Below, in pieces: positions 4,790 through 25,152 of a DNA stretch of 43,763 nucleotides. The notes beneath the pieces are model-generated. The model saw only the letters and a program-made list of their open reading frames with translations. It was not told where the DNA came from and searched no databases. The stretch's first letter is position 1, and each line of letters starts with the position of its first letter. Source of the stretch: Chitinophaga pinensis (GTDB taxonomy: Bacteria; Bacteroidota; Bacteroidia; SXHM01); NCBI GenBank assembly GCA_945870105.1, contig CAMBRL010000011.1:1-43763 (forward strand), given 5' to 3'. The position numbers and the translations under genes were made by a program.

Positions 4790-4860
4790 TTCCTTGTTGC
4801 GATAATTGTAACAAATGTAACTGCCCGTTTCAAAACATCTTTGCACCTTTGTACTACAAA

Positions 4861-4890
4861 CTTTCAACTTTGGACTTTCAACTTTGAACT
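4861..4890. repeat. Heptanucleotide repeat tract upstream of the MBL-rhodanese gene
   Basis: Four perfect 7-bp frames, CTTTCAA, CTTTGGA, CTTTCAA and CTTTGAA, follow one another immediately upstream of the ATG at 4900. They are of the same kind as the tracts at 619-700 and 8534-8568. Confidence 0.75.
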
Positions 4891-13520: not shown

Positions 13521-14813
13521 ATGAAAAATCTATTTTACACTTTAATCTGTTTGCTTTCCGCTTCACAGATATTCGCTCAAACCCCTGCCAAGTCACAGCA
13601 AAAACTAATTGTTCTGCTGAACGGAACAGCACACATCGGCAACGGAACTGTGATTGAAAAATCGGCAATTGGTTTTGAAAACGGTGAACTCCTATTTGTA
13701 AGCGATGCGAAAGATTACACCCGACAACTAGGTGATGAAGTAATTGACATCAACGGAAAACAGGTTTATCCCGGGTTTATTGCGCCTTCCACAACACTTG
13801 GTCTGGTAGAGATTGATGCAGTTCGCTCTACCCGCGATTTTGAAGATGTGGGTTCTATCAATCCCCATGTGCGCTCCGAAATTTCTTACAACACCGATTC
13901 TAAAATCATTCCTACCATCCGCACCAACGGGGTTTTACTGGCACAGGTTGCTCCGCGTGGCGGACTTATTTCAGGAACATCTTCCGTATTTACTCTTGAT
14001 GGCTGGAACTGGGAAGATGCCGTTTACAAAACCGATGATGGCATTTTTGTCAACTGGCCGGCACGCTACTCCGCAGGCGGCTGGTGGGGCGAACCCGAAC
14101 CAATGAAGAAAAACGAAGAATATGAAAAACGCATTGCTGTGCTTCAGAAATTTTTTGCCGATGCAAAAGCCTACAGCCAAAACGGACAAAACGAATTAGA
14201 CATACGCATGGAAGCCATGAAAGGCGTTTTTACTGGAGCGAAAAGATTATTCATCAATGCAACACTTGCCAAAGACATTATTGAAGCAGTTTATTTTGCC
14301 AAAAATTTTGCTGTTCCGCATTTGGTTATTGTTGGTGCCAAGGATGCTTCGCTGGTTACCGATGTTTTGAAAAACAACAATGTGGCAGTGGTCTTAGACC
14401 GTGTTCACGATTTGCCTTCTTCGCCCGACAGCGATATTGATCTTCCTTTCAAAACCCCGAAAATATTGCAGGATGCAGGTGTACTCTATTGCCTGAGTTA
14501 CATGGGCGGAATGGAAACTGCCGGAATGCGAAACCTGCCCTTTACAGCCGGAACTGCCGTTGCTTATGGACTTACCAAAGAACAAGCCCTTTCAGCAATT
14601 ACCCTCAATACCGCCAAAATTCTGGGCATTGATGCAACAGCAGGAACACTGGAAGGCGGCAAAGACGCAACACTTTTTGTTTCATCGGGCGATGCCTTGG
14701 ACATGCGCACCAACAATGTGGAAATGGCTTTTATCAAGGGTAGAAAATTAGACCTTGATAACCACCAGAAACAACTTTACCGCAAGTTCAGGAATAAATA
14801 TACCGGCAAGTAA
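13521..14813 (+). CDS. Secreted amidohydrolase-like protein without canonical metal ligands
   Basis: The 430-residue product has a signal peptide (MKNLFYTLICLLSASQIFAQ). The ATG at 13521 is preferred to the GTG at 13494, which lies in the repeat. The N-terminal beta-sandwich (GNGTVIEKSAIGFENGELLFV) and C-terminal GTLEGGKDATLFVSSGDALD are typical of the amidohydrolase superfamily. However, the GFIAPSTTLGL segment stands where the HxH motif is expected, and no other clear His/Asp set follows. It resembles the N-terminal half of the preceding 997-residue protein. It may be a non-catalytic partner; I infer that the two act as one complex because they are adjacent and both exported. Confidence 0.75.
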   Translation: MKNLFYTLICLLSASQIFAQTPAKSQQKLIVLLNGTAHIGNGTVIEKSAIGFENGELLFVSDAKDYTRQLGDEVIDINGKQVYPGFIAPSTTLGLVEIDAVRSTRDFEDVGSINPHVRSEISYNTDSKIIPTIRTNGVLLAQVAPRGGLISGTSSVFTLDGWNWEDAVYKTDDGIFVNWPARYSAGGWWGEPEPMKKNEEYEKRIAVLQKFFADAKAYSQNGQNELDIRMEAMKGVFTGAKRLFINATLAKDIIEAVYFAKNFAVPHLVIVGAKDASLVTDVLKNNNVAVVLDRVHDLPSSPDSDIDLPFKTPKILQDAGVLYCLSYMGGMETAGMRNLPFTAGTAVAYGLTKEQALSAITLNTAKILGIDATAGTLEGGKDATLFVSSGDALDMRTNNVEMAFIKGRKLDLDNHQKQLYRKFRNKYTGK

Positions 14814-14871
14814 TCAAGGAAGAAGCAGAGCGAGGTAAGAAGTTCGAAAGATTTTTAAATAAATTTTCATC

Positions 14872-15969
14872 ATGAAAAATCTTTACAAAATCATCGCAGC
14901 ATATGTAATTTTCAATTTTTCTTTTTTTATTTCCAACCCTGCAAGTGCGCAAAAAGACAGCACCCGGTCACTATCTTTTTCAGGATATATAGAAACCTAT
15001 TACAGCTATGATTTTGCAAATCCGGGCAACCATAACCGCCAACCGTTTGTCTATTCATTCAACCGCCACAATGAGTTTAACTTAAATCTCGGTTTCGTAA
15101 AACTGGCTTACAACAGCAGCAGAGTAAGAGCCAACATTGCTCTTATGGCAGGTACATACAGTAATGATAATCTTGCAGCAGAGCCCGGAGTTTTGAAAAA
15201 TATTCTGGAAGCAAATGCAGGTATAAAAATTTCAGCAAAGAAAAACCTGTGGGTAGATGCCGGTATTTTCGCTTCCCACATTGGCTTTGAAAGTGCTGTA
15301 GGTAAAGATTGCTGGAATTTAACTCGCGGTATTTTGGCAGATAACTCACCTTACTACGAAAGCGGTGTAAAAATCGGCTACACCTCCGATAACGAAAAAT
15401 GGTTTTTAAGTGCTCTGGTGCTTAACGGTTGGCAGCGCATCTACAGAGTAAATGGAAATAACATGCCCGCATTCGGACATCAGATTACCTTCAAACCCAA
15501 TTCAAAGATTACACTCAACAGTAGTTCATTCATTGGAAGCGACAAACCCGACAGCACCCGCCAGATGCGCTACTTCCATAATTTTTATGGCATCTTCCAG
15601 TTACACGAAAAATTTGGGATAACTGCCGGGTTTGATTTCGGTGCCGAGCAAACTGCAAAAGGCAGCAGCGATTATAACACCTGGTACACTCCTGTGTTGA
15701 TGTTGAGAGTAAGTCCTTCTTCTAAGTTTAATATAGCTGCAAGAGGCGAATACTACAGCGATTCAAAAGGCGTACTAATTGCTACAGGCACACCCAATGG
15801 TTTTCAAACGCTGGGTTATTCGCTTAACTTTGATTACTTGTTCCGTGAAAATATCATGTGGAGAATTGAAGGACGTGCATTTGCAAGCAAAGACAATATC
15901 TTTTCATTGGACAACAAACCGGCAGCACAAAACTATTTTATAACAACATCGCTGGCTGTTTCATTTTAA
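14872..15969 (+). CDS. Outer-membrane beta-barrel protein, OmpL-like porin family
   Basis: The 365-residue protein has a signal peptide (to about residue 26, ASAQ). It has a repeating pattern of amphipathic strands with aromatic ends: LSFSGYIETYYSYDF near the mature N-terminus, FNRHNEFNLNLGFVKLAY, AGIFASHIGFESAVG, and a terminal FITTSLAVSF ending in Phe, as required for BAM-dependent barrel assembly. This is the Bacteroidota putative porin group (BBP2-like). It may admit the small substrates used by the two amidohydrolases upstream, with which it is collinear 58 bp away. The substrate is unknown. Confidence 0.82.
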   Translation: MKNLYKIIAAYVIFNFSFFISNPASAQKDSTRSLSFSGYIETYYSYDFANPGNHNRQPFVYSFNRHNEFNLNLGFVKLAYNSSRVRANIALMAGTYSNDNLAAEPGVLKNILEANAGIKISAKKNLWVDAGIFASHIGFESAVGKDCWNLTRGILADNSPYYESGVKIGYTSDNEKWFLSALVLNGWQRIYRVNGNNMPAFGHQITFKPNSKITLNSSSFIGSDKPDSTRQMRYFHNFYGIFQLHEKFGITAGFDFGAEQTAKGSSDYNTWYTPVLMLRVSPSSKFNIAARGEYYSDSKGVLIATGTPNGFQTLGYSLNFDYLFRENIMWRIEGRAFASKDNIFSLDNKPAAQNYFITTSLAVSF

Positions 15970-16880: not shown

Positions 16881-19800
16881 TTGAAACCACTTTCAAAAAA
16901 CATTCTTCGTTTTGCTCCTGTTATTGCCCTACTGCCTGTGGTGTGGTTCTCGGGCGCGGCTGTGCTTCCCGAAGAAATGCTTTTTGAAATTGCCGAAGCT
17001 TCTTCTGCGTTGAGTTTAACAATCGAACCCGAAATCTTTCTCGTTGATACCCCTCCCGTTGATACCCTCAAATATCCTTTCTCCGATAATTATGCTCCGC
17101 AACCCGGTAACGATAGCACACCAAGTCTGCAAATGGCAAATCCCTCAAATGTGGAGACAAATGTAGAGTACGACCCCGAAACCAATACCTACATCATTAC
17201 CGAAACAGTAGGCGGACAAAACACCAAGCCGCCCACCTACATGACCTTTGATGAATACCAACGCTATGTTGCACAAAAGCAGGAACAGGAATACTGGGAA
17301 TCACGCTCAGCCGAAGAAAGTGCCAACGCTAAAAAACCACTGATACCAAAACTGAATATCAACAGCAAGGTGCTCGACAAAATTTTTGGTGATTGCCCTA
17401 TTGAAATAAAACCACAAGGTTCGGCAGAGTTGATTTTCGGGTGGAACACTTCCAAGGTAAACAACCCTGCGCTTCCAATCCGTCAGCGCAAAAACACCAC
17501 CTTCAATTTCGACCAGAAGATTCAGATGAACGTAACCGGAAATATCGGTTGCAAAATGAAACTCACCACTTCTTACAATACCGAAGCCACCTTTGACTTC
17601 GACAACCAGATGAAACTCGCTTATCAGGGCGAGGAAGATGATATCATCCAGTTGATTGAAGCCGGTAACGTAAACCTGCCGCTAACCGGAAGTCTTATTC
17701 AGGGAAGCCAGAGTTTGTTTGGTATAAAAACAGCATTGAAATTCGGAAGACTTACCGTTACCGGCATCTTCTCGCAACAACGTGGTAAATCACAAACCAT
17801 AGATGTGCAGGGCGGTGCGCAGGTTACCAAGTTTGAGATCAAAGGCGATAACTACGAAGCCAACAAACACTATTTCCTTGCCGAATATTTCCGCAGCAAT
17901 TACGATGTGGCTTTGGCAAATCTGCCTATTGTTTCTTCTAACGCAATCATTACAAAAGTGGAAGTGTATGTAACCAACAAGACCTCCATTTTTGATAATA
18001 CCCGAAACATTGTTCCGTTTCAGGGTCTGGGCGAAAACATAGCTGTTTACAATTCAAAATATCCTGACGGACAAACCTTTATTCAAAACAATCAGGGTGG
18101 AGCTTACCCTTTCAATAACAACAACAACCTTTACAGTAAACTTACCTCTACCTATTCTGCCATCCGCAACATTAATCAGGTAACGAGCACACTACTCAGC
18201 ACCGGTCTGCAAAACTCGCGCGATTACGAGGTAATTGAAAATGCACGAAAACTTACCGAAAACTCTGAATACACCATTAACAACCGTTTGGGTTACATCT
18301 CATTAAGCACCCCGCTGAATGCAGATGAGGTTCTTGCTGTTGCTTTCCAGTATACCTTGAACGGAACCACTTACCAGGTGGGTGAATTTTCAACCGATGG
18401 TATTGCTGCACCCAGTGCGCTTATCCTGAAAATGCTGAAGAGTACCACACTCAACACCCGCCTGCCTATGTGGGACTGGATGATGAAAAACGTTTACTCG
18501 CTTGGCGCTTACCAACTGAACCGCGAAGATTTTACCCTGAATATATTGTACGACAACTTTGCCAGCGGTACGCGACTGAACTACCTTCCCAACAATGCTA
18601 TTACCAATAATACAAATGACCCGAACAGCGGCAGTAAAATTCTGCTGAAAGTGTTGAACGTAGATAAGTTGAACGTAAACAATGACCCTGTCCCCGATGG
18701 TTACTTCGATTATGTGGAAGGCTTAACTATCAATTCGCAAACGGGAAGAATCTTTTTACCGGTTGTGGAGCCATTCGGAAGTCATTTGCGCCAACAGATT
18801 TTAGCAGGTCCTCACCCTGAGCTGGCCGACCAGTTTGATTACCAGATACTGTATGACTCCACTCACCAGAAAGCTGTTCAACAGCCGCAACTCAACCGCT
18901 TCCTGATTTCCGGAAGTTATAAATCCGAATCGGGTTCAGAGATTCCGCTGAATGCGATTAACGTTCCCCAAGGTTCGGTAAGCGTAACCGCTGGCGGAAC
19001 AACATTGACCGAAGGCGCTGACTATACCGTTGACTACACCTTGGGGCGTGTAAAAATCATCAACCAGAGTATTCTGAATGCGGGAACTCCTATCAGTATT
19101 AACTTAGAGAGCCAGAGTATGTTCAACATACAAACCAAAACCTTGTATGGAACGCATCTGGATTATACTATTAATAAGAATTTCAAATTGGGCGGAACGT
19201 TCATGCACATGAACGAGCGTCCGCTTACTCAAAAAGTAAACATTGGTGATGAGCCAATAGCAAACAGTATCTGGGGATTAGACGGAAGCTGGAGAAAAGA
19301 ATCGCGTTTACTTACCAAATTAGTGGACAAAATTCCGCTCATCAATACCAAAGCTCCTTCCAGCATTGCAGTAAATGGTGAGTTTGCGCAACTTCTTCCC
19401 GGCAATGCAAAAGCTATCAGTCAGGATGGCGGTATCTCTTACATGGATGACTTTGAAGGAACGCAAACGCTCATTGACATCAAAAATGTACAGGCCTGGG
19501 GCATTGCTTCAACTCCGCAGGGGCAACCTGATTTATTTCCCGAGGCAAGCCTCTCCAACGATTTACGTTACGGGATGAACCGTGCGAAACTGGCTTGGTA
19601 TATCATTGACCCTTTATTTATTCAGGACGGAAACCAGTTAACACCCGACCACATTACCAAAGACGACCAGAGTAATCACTTTACCCGTATGGTGCAGGTA
19701 ACTGAAGTGTTCCCTAATCAGCAGGTGGCGGCAGGACAAATTAATGCACTTACCGTTTTTGATTTGGCGTATTATCCAAGAGAAAAAGGGCCTTATAATT

Positions 19801-22800
19801 TTGACTCTAAACCGCAAAGCGGATTTGTGAGTTCAGCGGGTATCAACTCAGCGGGGTTGCTTAACGACCCTGAATCACGCTGGGGCGGTATCATGCGCAA
19901 AATTGACCCTAACGATTTTGAAGCGGCCAACATTCAGTTTGTTCAGTTCTGGATGATGGATCCGTTTGCTTTAGCAGATGGAACTACCGCATTAAACACA
20001 ACCGGTGGCGATTTTTATCTGAACCTTGGAAACACATCGGAAGATATTTTGCGTGACTCACGTAAATCTTTTGAAAACGGATTGCCGGCACCGACTAATG
20101 GCAATGCAACCGACACAACAGCATGGGGAATTGTTCCCAACGTGCAGCAGATTGTAAACGCGTTTGACAACGACCCGGCTTCGCGCCCCTATCAGGATAT
20201 TGGTCTGGATGGTTTGTCTGACACTGCCGAAAATACTTTCTTCAAACAACAATACCTTGATGAAGTAGTTACGCTTTACGGAATGAACTCCGAAGCCTAT
20301 ACCAATGCAATTACCGATCCCTCTTCAGACGATTATACTTTTTACCGCAACGATACTTACGATACCGAACAACGTTCTATTCTATGGCGCTACAAAGAAT
20401 ACAACAACCTTGAAGGCAACTCACCCGCTTCTGAATCTGCCAACGAAGATTTCCCTACTTCGGCAACAACAGTTCCCAATGCAGAGGATGTAAACAAAGA
20501 CAATACACTGAGTGAATCGGAGACGTATTACCAGTACAAAGTAAGTCTGCGCCCGCAGGACATGGTGGTAGGACAAAACTACATCACCGATAAGATTACC
20601 GTAAATCCTCCTTTGCTGAACGGACAAAGCAATGAAGTTACCTGGTATCAGTTCCGTATTCCGGTGCGCCAACCCGATAAAGTGGTGGGCAGTATTTCCG
20701 ATTTTCGTTCTATCCGTTTTATGCGTTTGTTTATGCGCGGTTTTGAAGACAGCGTTGTTTGCCGTTTTGCCAAAATGGAACTGGTGCGCGGTGAGTGGCG
20801 CCCTTATGATTTTTCGTTACTGGAGCCCGGTGAATATGTTCCCGTTGATAACAGCGATGATACCGAGTTTGATGTGGGTGCTGTAAACATTGAGCAGAAC
20901 TCAAACCGTATTCCTATCAACTACAAACTGCCTCCCGGAATTCAGCGTCAGCAAATCAATCAGGGTAACAGCAACACGCTGCGCCAACTGAACGAGCAAT
21001 CGCTTTCATTGCGTGTGTGCGGACTGAATGATGGTGATGCCCGTGCAGCTTTTAAAAATGTGCAGTTTGATGTGCGCAGATACAAACGCTTTAAAATGTT
21101 TGTACACGCAGAACAGCGTGGAGAAGAGATTGTGAACGATGGCGACCTTACCTGCTTTATCCGTTTCGGAACAGATTATGTAAACAACTATTACGAGTAC
21201 GAGATACCATTAAAGTTTACTCCGCTTGGCGACCCCGGTATCGACTCCACCAAAATATGGCCTGATTCCAATTTCTTTGATTTCCCGTTTGAGGTACTGC
21301 TTGCAGCCAAGCAGGAGCGCACAGCAAATGGCGTTCCGCAGGTGCAGCCTTTTTACACCTTCGACCCCAATAAGCCCGATAACAGAATTACCATCGTAGG
21401 TAACCCCAACCTTGCCAACGTGCGCACCGCCATGATTGGTATCCGCAACCCGCCAAAGGCATCAAACCCGCATGCAGATGACGGCAAAGAAAAATGTGCA
21501 GAGATTTGGGTAAATGAAATGCGCCTTACCGATTTCAATAACGAGAGCGGCTCGGCTGCGCGACTGCAGGCAAAAATTACGCTTGCCGATTTTGCAACCG
21601 TAAACATAGGTACAGGCCTGCACACCTTCGGCTGGGGACAGGTACACGAAAAACTGAACCAGCGCAGCTGGACCGACAGCGTGGGTTACGACATTGCCAC
21701 CACCGTTGCCCTCGACAAGTTTATTCCGCAAAAGATTGGCGTGAAACTGCCGATGTTCTACAGTATTTCCGAGTCGTTCAGCAATCCGCACTACAATCCT
21801 CTGAACCCCGATATTGAATTGAAGAACGAGAATGATTCAACGCGCAAAGCAGTGAAGGAAATTGCGCAGGGCTATGTAAAGCGGCAAAGTCTGAACTTCA
21901 GTAACGTGATGCGAACGCGCGGCAAGGGCATTGGATTCCCTACACCGATTGATATTTCTAATTTCTCGGCAACGTATGCCTATACCGAAATGGAAAGCCG
22001 CGATATTAATTACGAACTCAATAATGATAAGTCGCATCGGGGCTCGCTCAACTACGCCTACAATCCTAACCCTAAGAACGTGCGCCCTTTTGCGAAACTG
22101 AAAATCATGAAAAAGATTTCGGACAGCATTATTGAACACAAAAAGAAAAAGGAGAAAGATGCCAAAGCCGTAGTTGACAGCTTGAAGAAAGACAATAAAA
22201 AACCTTCGGCATTGAAAGAAGCGGAAGAAGAACTGGCATTGCGCACCAGGAAAAAAGACCGCTTTGTAAAAGCATCGGACCGATACTTTAAGTCGGGCTA
22301 CCTGAAACCGATAAAAGATTTCAACTTCAATTACCTGCCCAGCAACTTTGGGGTGCGCAATGATGTGCTGCGTGATTATGCCGAACAGAAGCTGCGCAAC
22401 ACCACCACCGATGATTTGATTATTGATGCCACCTACAACAAATCATTTCTGTGGAACAGGTATTACACCTTTAAGTATGATTTGACCAAGGCTCTTAAAA
22501 TAGATTTCACCGCTACCAATAATGCCCGTATTGACGAGCCTCCCGGCAAGGTGGATAAAGATGACAAAGAAGAGTATGATTACTGGAAAGACAGTGTTTG
22601 GCACAACGTGCAGAACGGGGGAAGAACGGTTATGTATCAACATGCTACCAACGTTACCTATGCCTTGCCGATTAACAAGCTGCCAATTTTTGACTTTATA
22701 AACTCCAACGTGGGTTACTCTTCTACCTATATGTGGAACGCTGCTTCGCTGGCAGCATTAAGTCTGGGTAACACCATCTCCAACTCCAACACCAAAACAG

Positions 22801-24326
22801 GAAACGTAAACCTGAACTTTACACAGCTTTACAACAAGGTAAAATACTTTAAACGTGCCGGACAGCCGCAGTCGAACAAGCCCGCACCTAAGCCCAAGCC
22901 TAAAGATCCTAAGGCTCCGGTTCCTGATTCACTTAAAGCACCTAAAGACCCGCCAAAGGTTCTGGATGGTATTGGTATCACCTTTTCGCGTCTGTTGATT
23001 TCTGTAAAAAATGCTTCGTTCACCTACAACCAAACCAACGGAACAGTGCTGCCGGGCTATCGTCCGCAAACGGATTATATGGGTATGGACTGGGGTGACA
23101 GAATGGCTCCGGGCTGGGATTTTATTTTCGGAAGCCAGAACGATATACGCTACCGCGCAAGGGATAACAACTGGCTCAGCCAAAGTGATATTGTAAGCGG
23201 ACAATACATTACCACCAAAGCCATTACCTGGAACGGAAGAGCTACGGTTGAACCTTTGCCCAATCTTAAGGTTGACCTGACCATGAATTACAGCGAAACC
23301 GAAAACCACAGCGAGTTTTTCCAGTGGATTGATACGCTTCAGGATTTCCGTTCCAACAGCCCTATGACCAATGGTAGCTACAGCGTTTCGTGGAACACCT
23401 TTGGTACTGCATTTGAGGGCAATAGTGATGATTATACTTCGGCAGCGTTTGAACAATTGCGTGCTAACCGCAAACCTATTGCCGACCGGATTGCAGCTAT
23501 CAATGGTTCGCCCGGAGTAAACTCAGAAGGCTTCCCGATTGGCTATACCCAAACTTCGCAGGATGTTTTAATCCCTGCCTTCCTTGCTGCTTATTCTAAA
23601 ACGGATGTCAATAAAATAGGTTTGTCGCCCTTCCCGGCAATGCCTAAGGTAAACTGGAGTGCCAAGTATGACGGGCTGGGCAAACTTCCCTTCATGAAGA
23701 AAATATTTAAGTCCATTGTATTCAGTCATGCCTACCGTTCAACCTACGCGGTTTCGTCATGGATGACTAACCTTAACTACAACCCTGCCAACAACGGATT
23801 GGATTCGAGCCAGAACTTTATTCCGCAACGCACGATACAAACCATTACTATTTCAGAGCAATTCAGTCCGTTTATTGGTATTGACATGACGTTTAACAAC
23901 AGCCTGATTGCCAAATTTGAGTTAAAGAAAAGCCGCACACTTTCACTGAGCATGGTAAACACTCAGGTTACCGAAATAAAAAGCGAAGAGTGGGTGATGG
24001 GCTTGGGCTACCGTTTCAAGAATGTGAAATTCCCTATCAAGTTGGCTAAAGGCAAAAAGAAACCGGTTAGTGATGTAAACGTGCGTGTTGATTTAAGCAT
24101 ACGCGACAACCGAACCATTATCCGCAAAATTGAGGACGATGTGAACCAACCTACAGCCGGACAAAAACTGACTACCATTAAATTCTCGGCCGACTATGTG
24201 CTGAGCCCGCGCTTTAACATCCGCGCTTTCTACGACCGGATTATCACCAAGCCGGTTATCTCCTCCTCCTTCCCTACCGACAATACCAACGCAGGGATTG
24301 CGCTGAGGTTTACGCTGGCGCAGTAG
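16881..24326 (+). CDS. sprA: Type IX secretion translocon / gliding protein SprA (Sov)
   Basis: The 2481-residue product is close to the roughly 2400 residues of known SprA. SprA forms the 36-strand outer-membrane barrel through which folded T9SS cargo leaves. The TTG at 16881 is the only sensible start: it follows an AAAGGGAAAA ribosome-binding region and begins the signal sequence (KNILRFAPVIALLPVVW). Recognisable SprA stretches are NPSNVETNVEYDPETNTYIITE, KLNINSKVLDKIFGDCPIEIKPQGSAELIFG, the conserved SRLLTKLVDKIPLINTKAPSSI, and YMDDFEGTQTLIDI. Two charged insertions stand out: a Lys/Glu-rich helix (about 1750-1795) and a Lys-Pro-rich linker (about 1996-2033). PorV, encoded 15 kb upstream, plugs or accepts cargo from this channel. 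Confidence 0.95.
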   Translation: MKPLSKNILRFAPVIALLPVVWFSGAAVLPEEMLFEIAEASSALSLTIEPEIFLVDTPPVDTLKYPFSDNYAPQPGNDSTPSLQMANPSNVETNVEYDPETNTYIITETVGGQNTKPPTYMTFDEYQRYVAQKQEQEYWESRSAEESANAKKPLIPKLNINSKVLDKIFGDCPIEIKPQGSAELIFGWNTSKVNNPALPIRQRKNTTFNFDQKIQMNVTGNIGCKMKLTTSYNTEATFDFDNQMKLAYQGEEDDIIQLIEAGNVNLPLTGSLIQGSQSLFGIKTALKFGRLTVTGIFSQQRGKSQTIDVQGGAQVTKFEIKGDNYEANKHYFLAEYFRSNYDVALANLPIVSSNAIITKVEVYVTNKTSIFDNTRNIVPFQGLGENIAVYNSKYPDGQTFIQNNQGGAYPFNNNNNLYSKLTSTYSAIRNINQVTSTLLSTGLQNSRDYEVIENARKLTENSEYTINNRLGYISLSTPLNADEVLAVAFQYTLNGTTYQVGEFSTDGIAAPSALILKMLKSTTLNTRLPMWDWMMKNVYSLGAYQLNREDFTLNILYDNFASGTRLNYLPNNAITNNTNDPNSGSKILLKVLNVDKLNVNNDPVPDGYFDYVEGLTINSQTGRIFLPVVEPFGSHLRQQILAGPHPELADQFDYQILYDSTHQKAVQQPQLNRFLISGSYKSESGSEIPLNAINVPQGSVSVTAGGTTLTEGADYTVDYTLGRVKIINQSILNAGTPISINLESQSMFNIQTKTLYGTHLDYTINKNFKLGGTFMHMNERPLTQKVNIGDEPIANSIWGLDGSWRKESRLLTKLVDKIPLINTKAPSSIAVNGEFAQLLPGNAKAISQDGGISYMDDFEGTQTLIDIKNVQAWGIASTPQGQPDLFPEASLSNDLRYGMNRAKLAWYIIDPLFIQDGNQLTPDHITKDDQSNHFTRMVQVTEVFPNQQVAAGQINALTVFDLAYYPREKGPYNFDSKPQSGFVSSAGINSAGLLNDPESRWGGIMRKIDPNDFEAANIQFVQFWMMDPFALADGTTALNTTGGDFYLNLGNTSEDILRDSRKSFENGLPAPTNGNATDTTAWGIVPNVQQIVNAFDNDPASRPYQDIGLDGLSDTAENTFFKQQYLDEVVTLYGMNSEAYTNAITDPSSDDYTFYRNDTYDTEQRSILWRYKEYNNLEGNSPASESANEDFPTSATTVPNAEDVNKDNTLSESETYYQYKVSLRPQDMVVGQNYITDKITVNPPLLNGQSNEVTWYQFRIPVRQPDKVVGSISDFRSIRFMRLFMRGFEDSVVCRFAKMELVRGEWRPYDFSLLEPGEYVPVDNSDDTEFDVGAVNIEQNSNRIPINYKLPPGIQRQQINQGNSNTLRQLNEQSLSLRVCGLNDGDARAAFKNVQFDVRRYKRFKMFVHAEQRGEEIVNDGDLTCFIRFGTDYVNNYYEYEIPLKFTPLGDPGIDSTKIWPDSNFFDFPFEVLLAAKQERTANGVPQVQPFYTFDPNKPDNRITIVGNPNLANVRTAMIGIRNPPKASNPHADDGKEKCAEIWVNEMRLTDFNNESGSAARLQAKITLADFATVNIGTGLHTFGWGQVHEKLNQRSWTDSVGYDIATTVALDKFIPQKIGVKLPMFYSISESFSNPHYNPLNPDIELKNENDSTRKAVKEIAQGYVKRQSLNFSNVMRTRGKGIGFPTPIDISNFSATYAYTEMESRDINYELNNDKSHRGSLNYAYNPNPKNVRPFAKLKIMKKISDSIIEHKKKKEKDAKAVVDSLKKDNKKPSALKEAEEELALRTRKKDRFVKASDRYFKSGYLKPIKDFNFNYLPSNFGVRNDVLRDYAEQKLRNTTTDDLIIDATYNKSFLWNRYYTFKYDLTKALKIDFTATNNARIDEPPGKVDKDDKEEYDYWKDSVWHNVQNGGRTVMYQHATNVTYALPINKLPIFDFINSNVGYSSTYMWNAASLAALSLGNTISNSNTKTGNVNLNFTQLYNKVKYFKRAGQPQSNKPAPKPKPKDPKAPVPDSLKAPKDPPKVLDGIGITFSRLLISVKNASFTYNQTNGTVLPGYRPQTDYMGMDWGDRMAPGWDFIFGSQNDIRYRARDNNWLSQSDIVSGQYITTKAITWNGRATVEPLPNLKVDLTMNYSETENHSEFFQWIDTLQDFRSNSPMTNGSYSVSWNTFGTAFEGNSDDYTSAAFEQLRANRKPIADRIAAINGSPGVNSEGFPIGYTQTSQDVLIPAFLAAYSKTDVNKIGLSPFPAMPKVNWSAKYDGLGKLPFMKKIFKSIVFSHAYRSTYAVSSWMTNLNYNPANNGLDSSQNFIPQRTIQTITISEQFSPFIGIDMTFNNSLIAKFELKKSRTLSLSMVNTQVTEIKSEEWVMGLGYRFKNVKFPIKLAKGKKKPVSDVNVRVDLSIRDNRTIIRKIEDDVNQPTAGQKLTTIKFSADYVLSPRFNIRAFYDRIITKPVISSSFPTDNTNAGIALRFTLAQ

Positions 24327-24360
24327 GCATTTGTTTCTATCCATTTTATGCTTTTGGTAT

Positions 24361-24602
24361 TGGTAAGGCTAACATTGAGTATGCTTTAGCATAACATATT
24401 GTAAGTGTAAAGCATACTGTATGTACCTGTTAAGCACACGGTATGATAGTGTTAAGCTATACAGATGTTAGTGTTAGGACTATATCTGTATAGTGTAAGA
24501 CATACAGGTTGATAGTGTAACAGCTACAATATGTGAGCCTTAAACTATCACTATGTATGTGTTACAGCATCATTATATAAAGGGTAAAAAATGGGGGATA
24601 CT
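24361..24602. repeat. 22-bp tandem array, about ten degenerate units, after sprA
   Basis: Units begin every 22 bp at 24361, 24383, 24405, 24427, 24449, 24471, 24493, 24515, 24537 and 24559, with a weaker one at 24581. The conserved start is GTGTTAAG or GTGTAAG, followed by a variable part rich in TATA, ATAC and GTAT. Several units contain dyads: TATGC/GCATA around 24380-24393, CATACTGTATG at 24413, and ACTATA-TCTG-TATAGT at 24479-24494. Two neighbouring units form a perfect 10-bp inverted pair (CTATACAGAT at 24457, ATCTGTATAG at 24484). It occupies nearly all of the 310-bp space between the convergent sprA and gamma-carbonic-anhydrase genes; there is no ordinary terminator. Confidence 0.82.
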
Positions 24603-24636
24603 TACACCCTTAAGCCAATAAGGGTAACATCATTGC

Positions 24637-25152
24637 TTAGTCTCTAAACCACCCTGAATACATCACATAGTTTTCGGCAATGCCTTTAATAAGGGTAGCG
24701 GTTTGTTCGGCATTTAAGGTTTTTACTTTTTTGGCAGGAACACCGGCATAGATGCAGCCGCTCTCCACATGCGTGTTTTCCAGAACCACCGCACCGGCAG
24801 CTATGATGCTGTTTTCTTCCACCACCACATTGTCCATAACAATGGCTCCCATACCAATCAGCACATTATCTTTAACTGTGCAGCCATGCACCAGCGCATT
24901 GTGCCCGATGGATACATTATTGCCGATGGTAGTTGCTGCTTTTTTGTAGGTGCAATGGATAACCGCACCGTCCTGCACATTCACCCGATTGCCCATGCGG
25001 ATGTAATGCACATCACCGCGCACCACGGCATTAAACCACACACTGCATTCGTCACCCATTACCACATCGCCTACCACGGTTGCGTTTTCGGCTAAGTAGC
25101 AGTTGTTGCCAAACTTGGGTTCAATTCCTTTTACAGGTTTTATAAGTGCCAT
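24637..25152 (-). CDS. Gamma-carbonic anhydrase family protein (hexapeptide-repeat)
   Basis: The 171-residue left-handed beta-helix protein has repeating hexapeptides such as ATVVGDVVMGDECSVWFNAVVRGD, TIGNNVSIGHNALVHGC, LIGMGAIVMDNVVVEENSIIAAGAVV and YAGVPAKKV. The three metal-binding His of the gamma-CA trimer interface are visible: one in GAVIHC, two in NVSIGHNALVHGC. YrdA/PaaY-like relatives bind zinc; many show little or no CO2 hydration, so activity is uncertain. It converges on sprA across the 22-bp array and lies downstream of the glycosyltransferase genes, separated from them by a palindromic repeat. Confidence 0.9.
   Translation of the reverse strand: MALIKPVKGIEPKFGNNCYLAENATVVGDVVMGDECSVWFNAVVRGDVHYIRMGNRVNVQDGAVIHCTYKKAATTIGNNVSIGHNALVHGCTVKDNVLIGMGAIVMDNVVVEENSIIAAGAVVLENTHVESGCIYAGVPAKKVKTLNAEQTATLIKGIAENYVMYSGWFRD

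Follow-up and report, generated by a model that had tools for sequence, protein, structure and literature searches.

The 22-bp tandem array that follows sprA (24361-24602) is shown to be one locus of a genome-wide, satellite-like intergenic population with a 21-bp pitch, which has drifted to 22 bp at this site. The window, the whole stretch of 43,763 nucleotides that was analysed, is the entire contig C11 of genome G000 (3.6 Mb, 214 contigs). Within it, sprA on the + strand (16881-24326; SprA_N, type IX secretion and gliding; PF14349, E = 1.6e-199) is convergent with a hexapeptide-repeat, gamma-carbonic-anhydrase-like gene on the - strand (24637-25152; PF00132, E = 3.4e-19). The array between them, a feature without assigned strand, comprises 11 slots in one register, the best units of which lie at 24405-24580. 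Over its 242 bp, 116 of 220 positions match at lag 22, whereas first-order Markov shuffles give 61 on average (z = 7.7), and harmonics are observed at lag 44 (z = 5.9) and lag 66 (z = 3.3). Expressed on a common scale, its autocorrelation is 8.6, while the shuffle maximum over lags 5-69 is 5.0 at the 99.9% level. Shuffled controls therefore do not match the signal, and the array reported in the initial annotation is borne out. It is also the strongest lag-22 site within the window, and of 9,049 242-bp segments taken from other Bacteroidia families a single one, located in a 7-bp repeat, scored as high as 8.5 at lags 20-23. The consensus is GTGTTAAACAAACAGTATGTAA, and TRF recovered a core of 3.2 copies. 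Ten units with a conserved head had been described: about ten are indeed recognisable, but the GTGTTA-like head occurs in only seven or eight of them (24405-24580), the outer slots having decayed. The fixed register noted earlier holds without indels across all 11 slots, despite a mean identity between neighbouring units of 53%. The units run head to tail with no unrelated spacers between them; a CRISPR or other spacer array was ruled out, since no unique spacers alternate with repeats. An Rfam scan of the window matched no family, and the 22-mer has no second locus among seven genomes of the genus.

The population to which the array belongs was characterized by scanning for noncoding arrays with periods of 15-110 in 761 kb sampled from G000. 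Of the 27 arrays found, 25 had periods that deviate by no more than 1 bp from a multiple of 21 (21, 22, 41, 42, 63, 84), corresponding to 32.9 such arrays per Mb, about 15% of the sampled intergenic bases and, by extrapolation to 3.6 Mb, approximately 120 arrays in the genome. Across four genomes of the genus (G000 and three mates) the tally was 38 of 40, which has P ~1e-28 if periods of 15-110 are equally likely. The density was 33 per Mb in G000, 20 in G006, 40 in G002 and 6 in G003; the last yielded a single array in 160 kb, indicating that the arrays are dispensable at least there. In 549 kb from other Bacteroidia families, two arrays of the 21-multiple class were found (one 7-bp repeat, one 22-mer), and outside the genus a 21-bp array is present on one contig (L181) of the Bacteroidetes MAG palsa_968. 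Periods divisible by three would be expected in coding sequence; the 21-pitch arrays are located outside genes, and the periods 22 and 41 are not divisible by three. Array lengths are about 150-550 bp, unit sequences vary from locus to locus, and the G+C content of the tested arrays ranges from 19 to 64%. A sister array lies within the window at 2261-2554 (unstranded, 42-bp units, each with a pair of dyads spaced by 21 bp), and its family has further loci at G000:C115, G006:C9 and G005:C8. With its 42-bp period at approximately 2261-2554, this is probably what the initial annotation had in mind as a first phased array when it called the sprA array the second. Degenerate 7-bp intergenic repeats of the TCAATGT and ACTTTCA type are also present in the window at 602-729 and 4839-4890, and the sampled genomes of other Bacteroidia families have comparable 7-bp and 8-bp arrays.

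Comparison with close relatives shows entire arrays being gained, lost or replaced. In the sprA 3' region the fixed 22-bp array is not kept, and arrays of related pitch stand in its place in two relatives. In G006, the flanks of which are 95-99% identical, the gap holds a different array, a 42-mer with units containing CATTTTGRTTTCAAAATG; in G005, with flanks 96% identical, it holds about three units of the 21-mer CTGACAAGG; and G003 and G004 have no array there, the two genes being directly or almost directly adjacent. Other loci behave similarly. The array at L017:16177 is swapped in G006 between flanks that are 91-99% identical, and that at L012 is absent in G006. At L011, G005 and G001 have other arrays and G006 has none; the array at L027 is absent in G005 and replaced by a different array in G006. 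Arrays at L017:1008, L016:9387, L019:5092 and L023:17760 are conserved among relatives. Some families are found at several unrelated loci with unrelated flanks, the similarity being confined to the array: the G006 sprA-gap family, for example, is also present at G000:C66, G005:C49, G006:C67 and G002:C6. The remnant in the G005 sprA gap weakly matches a young G002 array (83% over 46 bp, E = 1.8e-5). The latter, at L127:17765-17960 (G002:C1), is a very young, near-perfect 42-bp array composed of TCTCCTTGTCAGCGGTAATTC and TCTCCTTGTCAGAGGTGCTGC. The copy number of arrays changes by whole units.

Against this rapid turnover, something seems to preserve the spacing of the arrays rather than their letters. 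Indels were counted in sister arrays only, with the sprA array itself left out, because no relative retains a copy of it that could be aligned. Aligned to close relatives, arrays contained 345 substitutions and 1 indel (ratio 0.003), other intergenic DNA at the same loci 231 substitutions and 46 indels (0.20), and genes in the same comparison 3551 substitutions and 46 indels (0.013). Some of the pairs are non-independent, and the arrays had been ascertained in G000 by their register. With one pair per array, the indel to substitution ratio was 1:218 versus 12:100 (P = 1.4e-5). Substitution divergence was 7.0% in arrays, 5.5% in other intergenic DNA and 6.2% in genes. The earlier argument that a fixed register reflects constraint on spacing is thus upheld by the sister arrays. 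Between species, columns shared by the units change at 3.4% versus 10% for variable columns; some letters may therefore matter, or units may be homogenised. A cyclic profile alignment for within-array indels was discarded, as simulated indels were not recovered by it.

The data require both a process that seeds and amplifies arrays at new intergenic sites and a remover of single-base indels that tolerates substitutions. The simplest candidate for the remover would be a putative sequence-tolerant protein with one site every two turns. The reading we lean towards, at a probability that falls a little short of even, is that of a satellite-like library in which the 21-bp pitch is selected and the sequence is not, perhaps as a lattice for a putative DNA-binding protein. 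Slightly more tentative is its fuller form, a bacterial satellite system whose two-turn pitch is the selected trait, with sequence left free, arrays arising, spreading among loci and being replaced, and the register maintained by a putative chromosome-binding reader. In such a system a short seed of one or a few units, from another array or of local origin, would land in an intergenic gap, be amplified in steps of 21 bp or multiples thereof, and then diverge. Selection would keep the register through a putative sequence-tolerant DNA-binding protein or nucleoid structure with one site per two helical turns, so that harm would come from losing register and not letters. The occupied array might serve in nucleoid folding, in the absorption of supercoils or in the quieting of intergenic transcription.

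The principal rival is a neutral or selfish satellite, which we regard as possible but distinctly less probable. Here the 21-bp pitch is the step of the amplifier (slippage, rolling circle or a nuclease with two-turn reach are candidates), and arrays spread and die without function, their register being maintained by gain and loss of whole units. Much of the turnover agrees with this: the speed with which arrays at orthologous loci are gained, lost and replaced, the occurrence of one family at unrelated loci, the presence of near-perfect young arrays (L127:17765) beside decayed ones, the unit-sized copy changes and the fact that no common function was seen among neighbouring genes. However, an unconstrained array should collect indels at the intergenic rate, and many arrays are too diverged for homologous turnover, as are the neighbouring sprA units, yet the aligned arrays are almost free of indels. 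A neutral satellite would account for seeding and amplification, but it leaves the scarcity of indels among diverged arrays unexplained.

The selected pitch has its own difficulties. Periods of 22 and 41 leave helical phase if the helical repeat is 10.5 bp, and at that repeat 22-bp units slip by roughly a complete turn across ten of them; strict phasing of the sprA array would require a helical repeat of about 11 bp. In addition, the A/T helical signal is absent from the sprA array, where no 11-bp phasing of A/T content was detected (P = 0.55-0.74), and a phased-curvature element was rejected on this basis. In some sister arrays the helical-period A/T signal is significant (combined P = 7e-4), and as a property common to all arrays it was rejected. 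The number of HU-family genes is likewise unremarkable (2 in G000).

Symmetry and folding are similarly restricted. Three inverted pairs, none with an assigned strand, are present in the sprA array, with arms of 17-40 nt and gaps of 17-19 nt: one at 24372-24424 (17 nt, 88% complementary, 19-nt gap), one at 24449-24501 (18 nt, 83%) and one at 24481-24579 (40-nt arms, 73%, 19-nt gap). The second contains the perfect 10-bp inverted pair that had been pointed out, which is real: CTATACAGAT at 24457-24466 and ATCTGTATAG at 24484-24493. As + strand RNA with these three pairs, the array folds better than 200 of 200 shuffles (z = -3.8), and in a separate test both strands folded better than shuffles (z = -3.8 and -5.7). 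Across the arrays, fold scores did not differ significantly from those of other intergenic DNA (P = 0.14), and about 10 of the 28 tested were without structure; folding was rejected as a common property. Dyad symmetry was rejected for the same role, since about half of the arrays are palindromic, typically with 42-bp units carrying two dyads 21 bp apart, and the others are purely direct. As folding, curvature and dyads are each not universal, none is the common property of the arrays; the pitch is.

Transposition, by which a transposase of the REP/RAYT or MITE kind would have mobilised the arrays as elements resembling BIMEs or BrickBuilt, is improbable. Many arrays are palindromic, and the sole Y1_Tnp gene of G000 adjoins a 41-bp array of one of the most dispersed families; its relative in G002 also adjoins an array, of another unit. 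But the ends of 38 arrays carry neither terminal inverted repeats nor target-site duplications beyond chance (edge inverted match 11.3 observed versus 11.4 in permuted pairs), a motif common to all families was not seen, G000 has one weak Y1_Tnp, fewer than many relatives, and the G006 sprA-gap family had no match in phages or plasmids. The divergent, RAYT-like Y1_Tnp gene beside the 41-bp array is located at L297:1026-2035 (G000:C10) and L298:875-1884 (G006:C18), and the G002 relative, beside an array with a 65-bp unit, at L299:1040-2183 (G002:C4).

Among known systems, the closest to the 21-bp-pitch arrays is the BrickBuilt minisatellite of Porphyromonas. In Porphyromonas gingivalis, imperfect 23-nt repeats are arranged head to tail at 19 loci, always intergenic, some of which are gained or lost between strains and one of which adjoins sprA; they form one sequence family, whose leader and tail bear terminal inverted repeats and whose elements contain 0-6% indels (PMC4596501). 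Both systems are found in Bacteroidota as imperfect intergenic repeats at many loci, with gain and loss and a copy beside sprA. Here, in contrast, the families are many and unrelated, and the pitch alone is common. A minisatellite MITE of the BrickBuilt type was considered in this light: 20-odd-bp intergenic units at many loci were found, whereas terminal repeats and a single unit sequence were not. REP and BIME units with RAYT are dispersed, intergenic, palindromic and sometimes tandem, with sequence and end tag common genome-wide (PMC3733652). The present arrays resemble them in being dispersed, sometimes tandem, intergenic palindromic units but have no genome-wide common sequence or end tag. 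This identity was rejected, as the palindromes vary by locus, some arrays lack them altogether, and the weak Y1_Tnp adjoins one family only.

Eukaryotic satellite DNA, in the library model, consists of monomers and of dimer or trimer higher-order units that are rapidly replaced among relatives. The arrays share the monomer, dimer and trimer higher-order units and the fast replacement between relatives, but they are short (about 150-550 bp) and lie in gene-dense bacterial DNA. Streamlined bacterial intergenic DNA is usually thought unsuited to satellite-like turnover. A lineage with about 15% of its sampled intergenic DNA in locus-specific arrays of 21-bp pitch is a natural test of sequence-independent selection on spacing, and of how short bacterial tandem arrays arise and move. 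STRR and LTRR are further dispersed intergenic tandem repeats in bacteria. The TAACTGA direct repeats are of the same kind and are found in bacteria including Bacteroidetes (PMC4679880). The likeness to these lies in the dispersed intergenic tandem arrays; theirs, however, are common short sequence families with a 7-bp or 37-bp pitch. Borg tandem repeats are perfect, A-rich and of varied unit length, with about half located in genes (PMC9879509). They too are genome-wide and fast evolving, with locus-specific units and intergenic copies, whereas the 21-pitch arrays are imperfect, of one pitch and outside genes. No description of bacterial arrays with a 21-bp pitch, or of an array population with many sequences and one pitch, was found in the open-access library searched.

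It had also been proposed that the array replaces the terminator expected between the convergent genes and might terminate or insulate the transcription arriving from either gene, a role that the distribution of arrays does not support. Thirteen arrays lie in tandem, 8 in divergent and 5 in convergent contexts, against gap lengths of 31, 19 and 10 kb; the arrays are placed between gene orientations in proportion to available space, and convergent gaps are not enriched. A bidirectional terminator or insulator at sprA, in which each transcript would fold its paired arms into hairpins, is very unlikely: the three inverted pairs and the better-than-shuffled folding of both strands favour it, but no intrinsic terminator (a G+C-rich stem followed by a T-run) was found on either strand in 24200-24800, the genus mates G003 and G004 manage without an array there, arrays show no excess between convergent genes, some of the tested arrays are without structure, and the fold scores of arrays do not differ significantly from those of other intergenic DNA. 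To the right of the array, at 24606-24625, lies an unstranded hairpin with a 7-bp stem (ACCCTTA/TAAGGGT) and without a T-run; a similar block is found to the right of the array in G006 and, degraded, in G005. At L017:16177, another convergent site, inspection shows separate hairpins on the flanks of the arrays that resemble terminators and carry T-runs.

Two minor observations concern the sampled records. In G002, long low-complexity coding repeats with a 63-bp period are present in two large neighbouring genes (L127:10054-10989 and 14005-14945), which are Gly/Ala/Thr-rich and collagen-like. The public MAG records L130, L136, L144 and L148, titled Chitinophaga pinensis or Bifidobacterium breve, contain a gene close to one in the array-bearing genus or in other Bacteroidia, and their titles look mislabelled.
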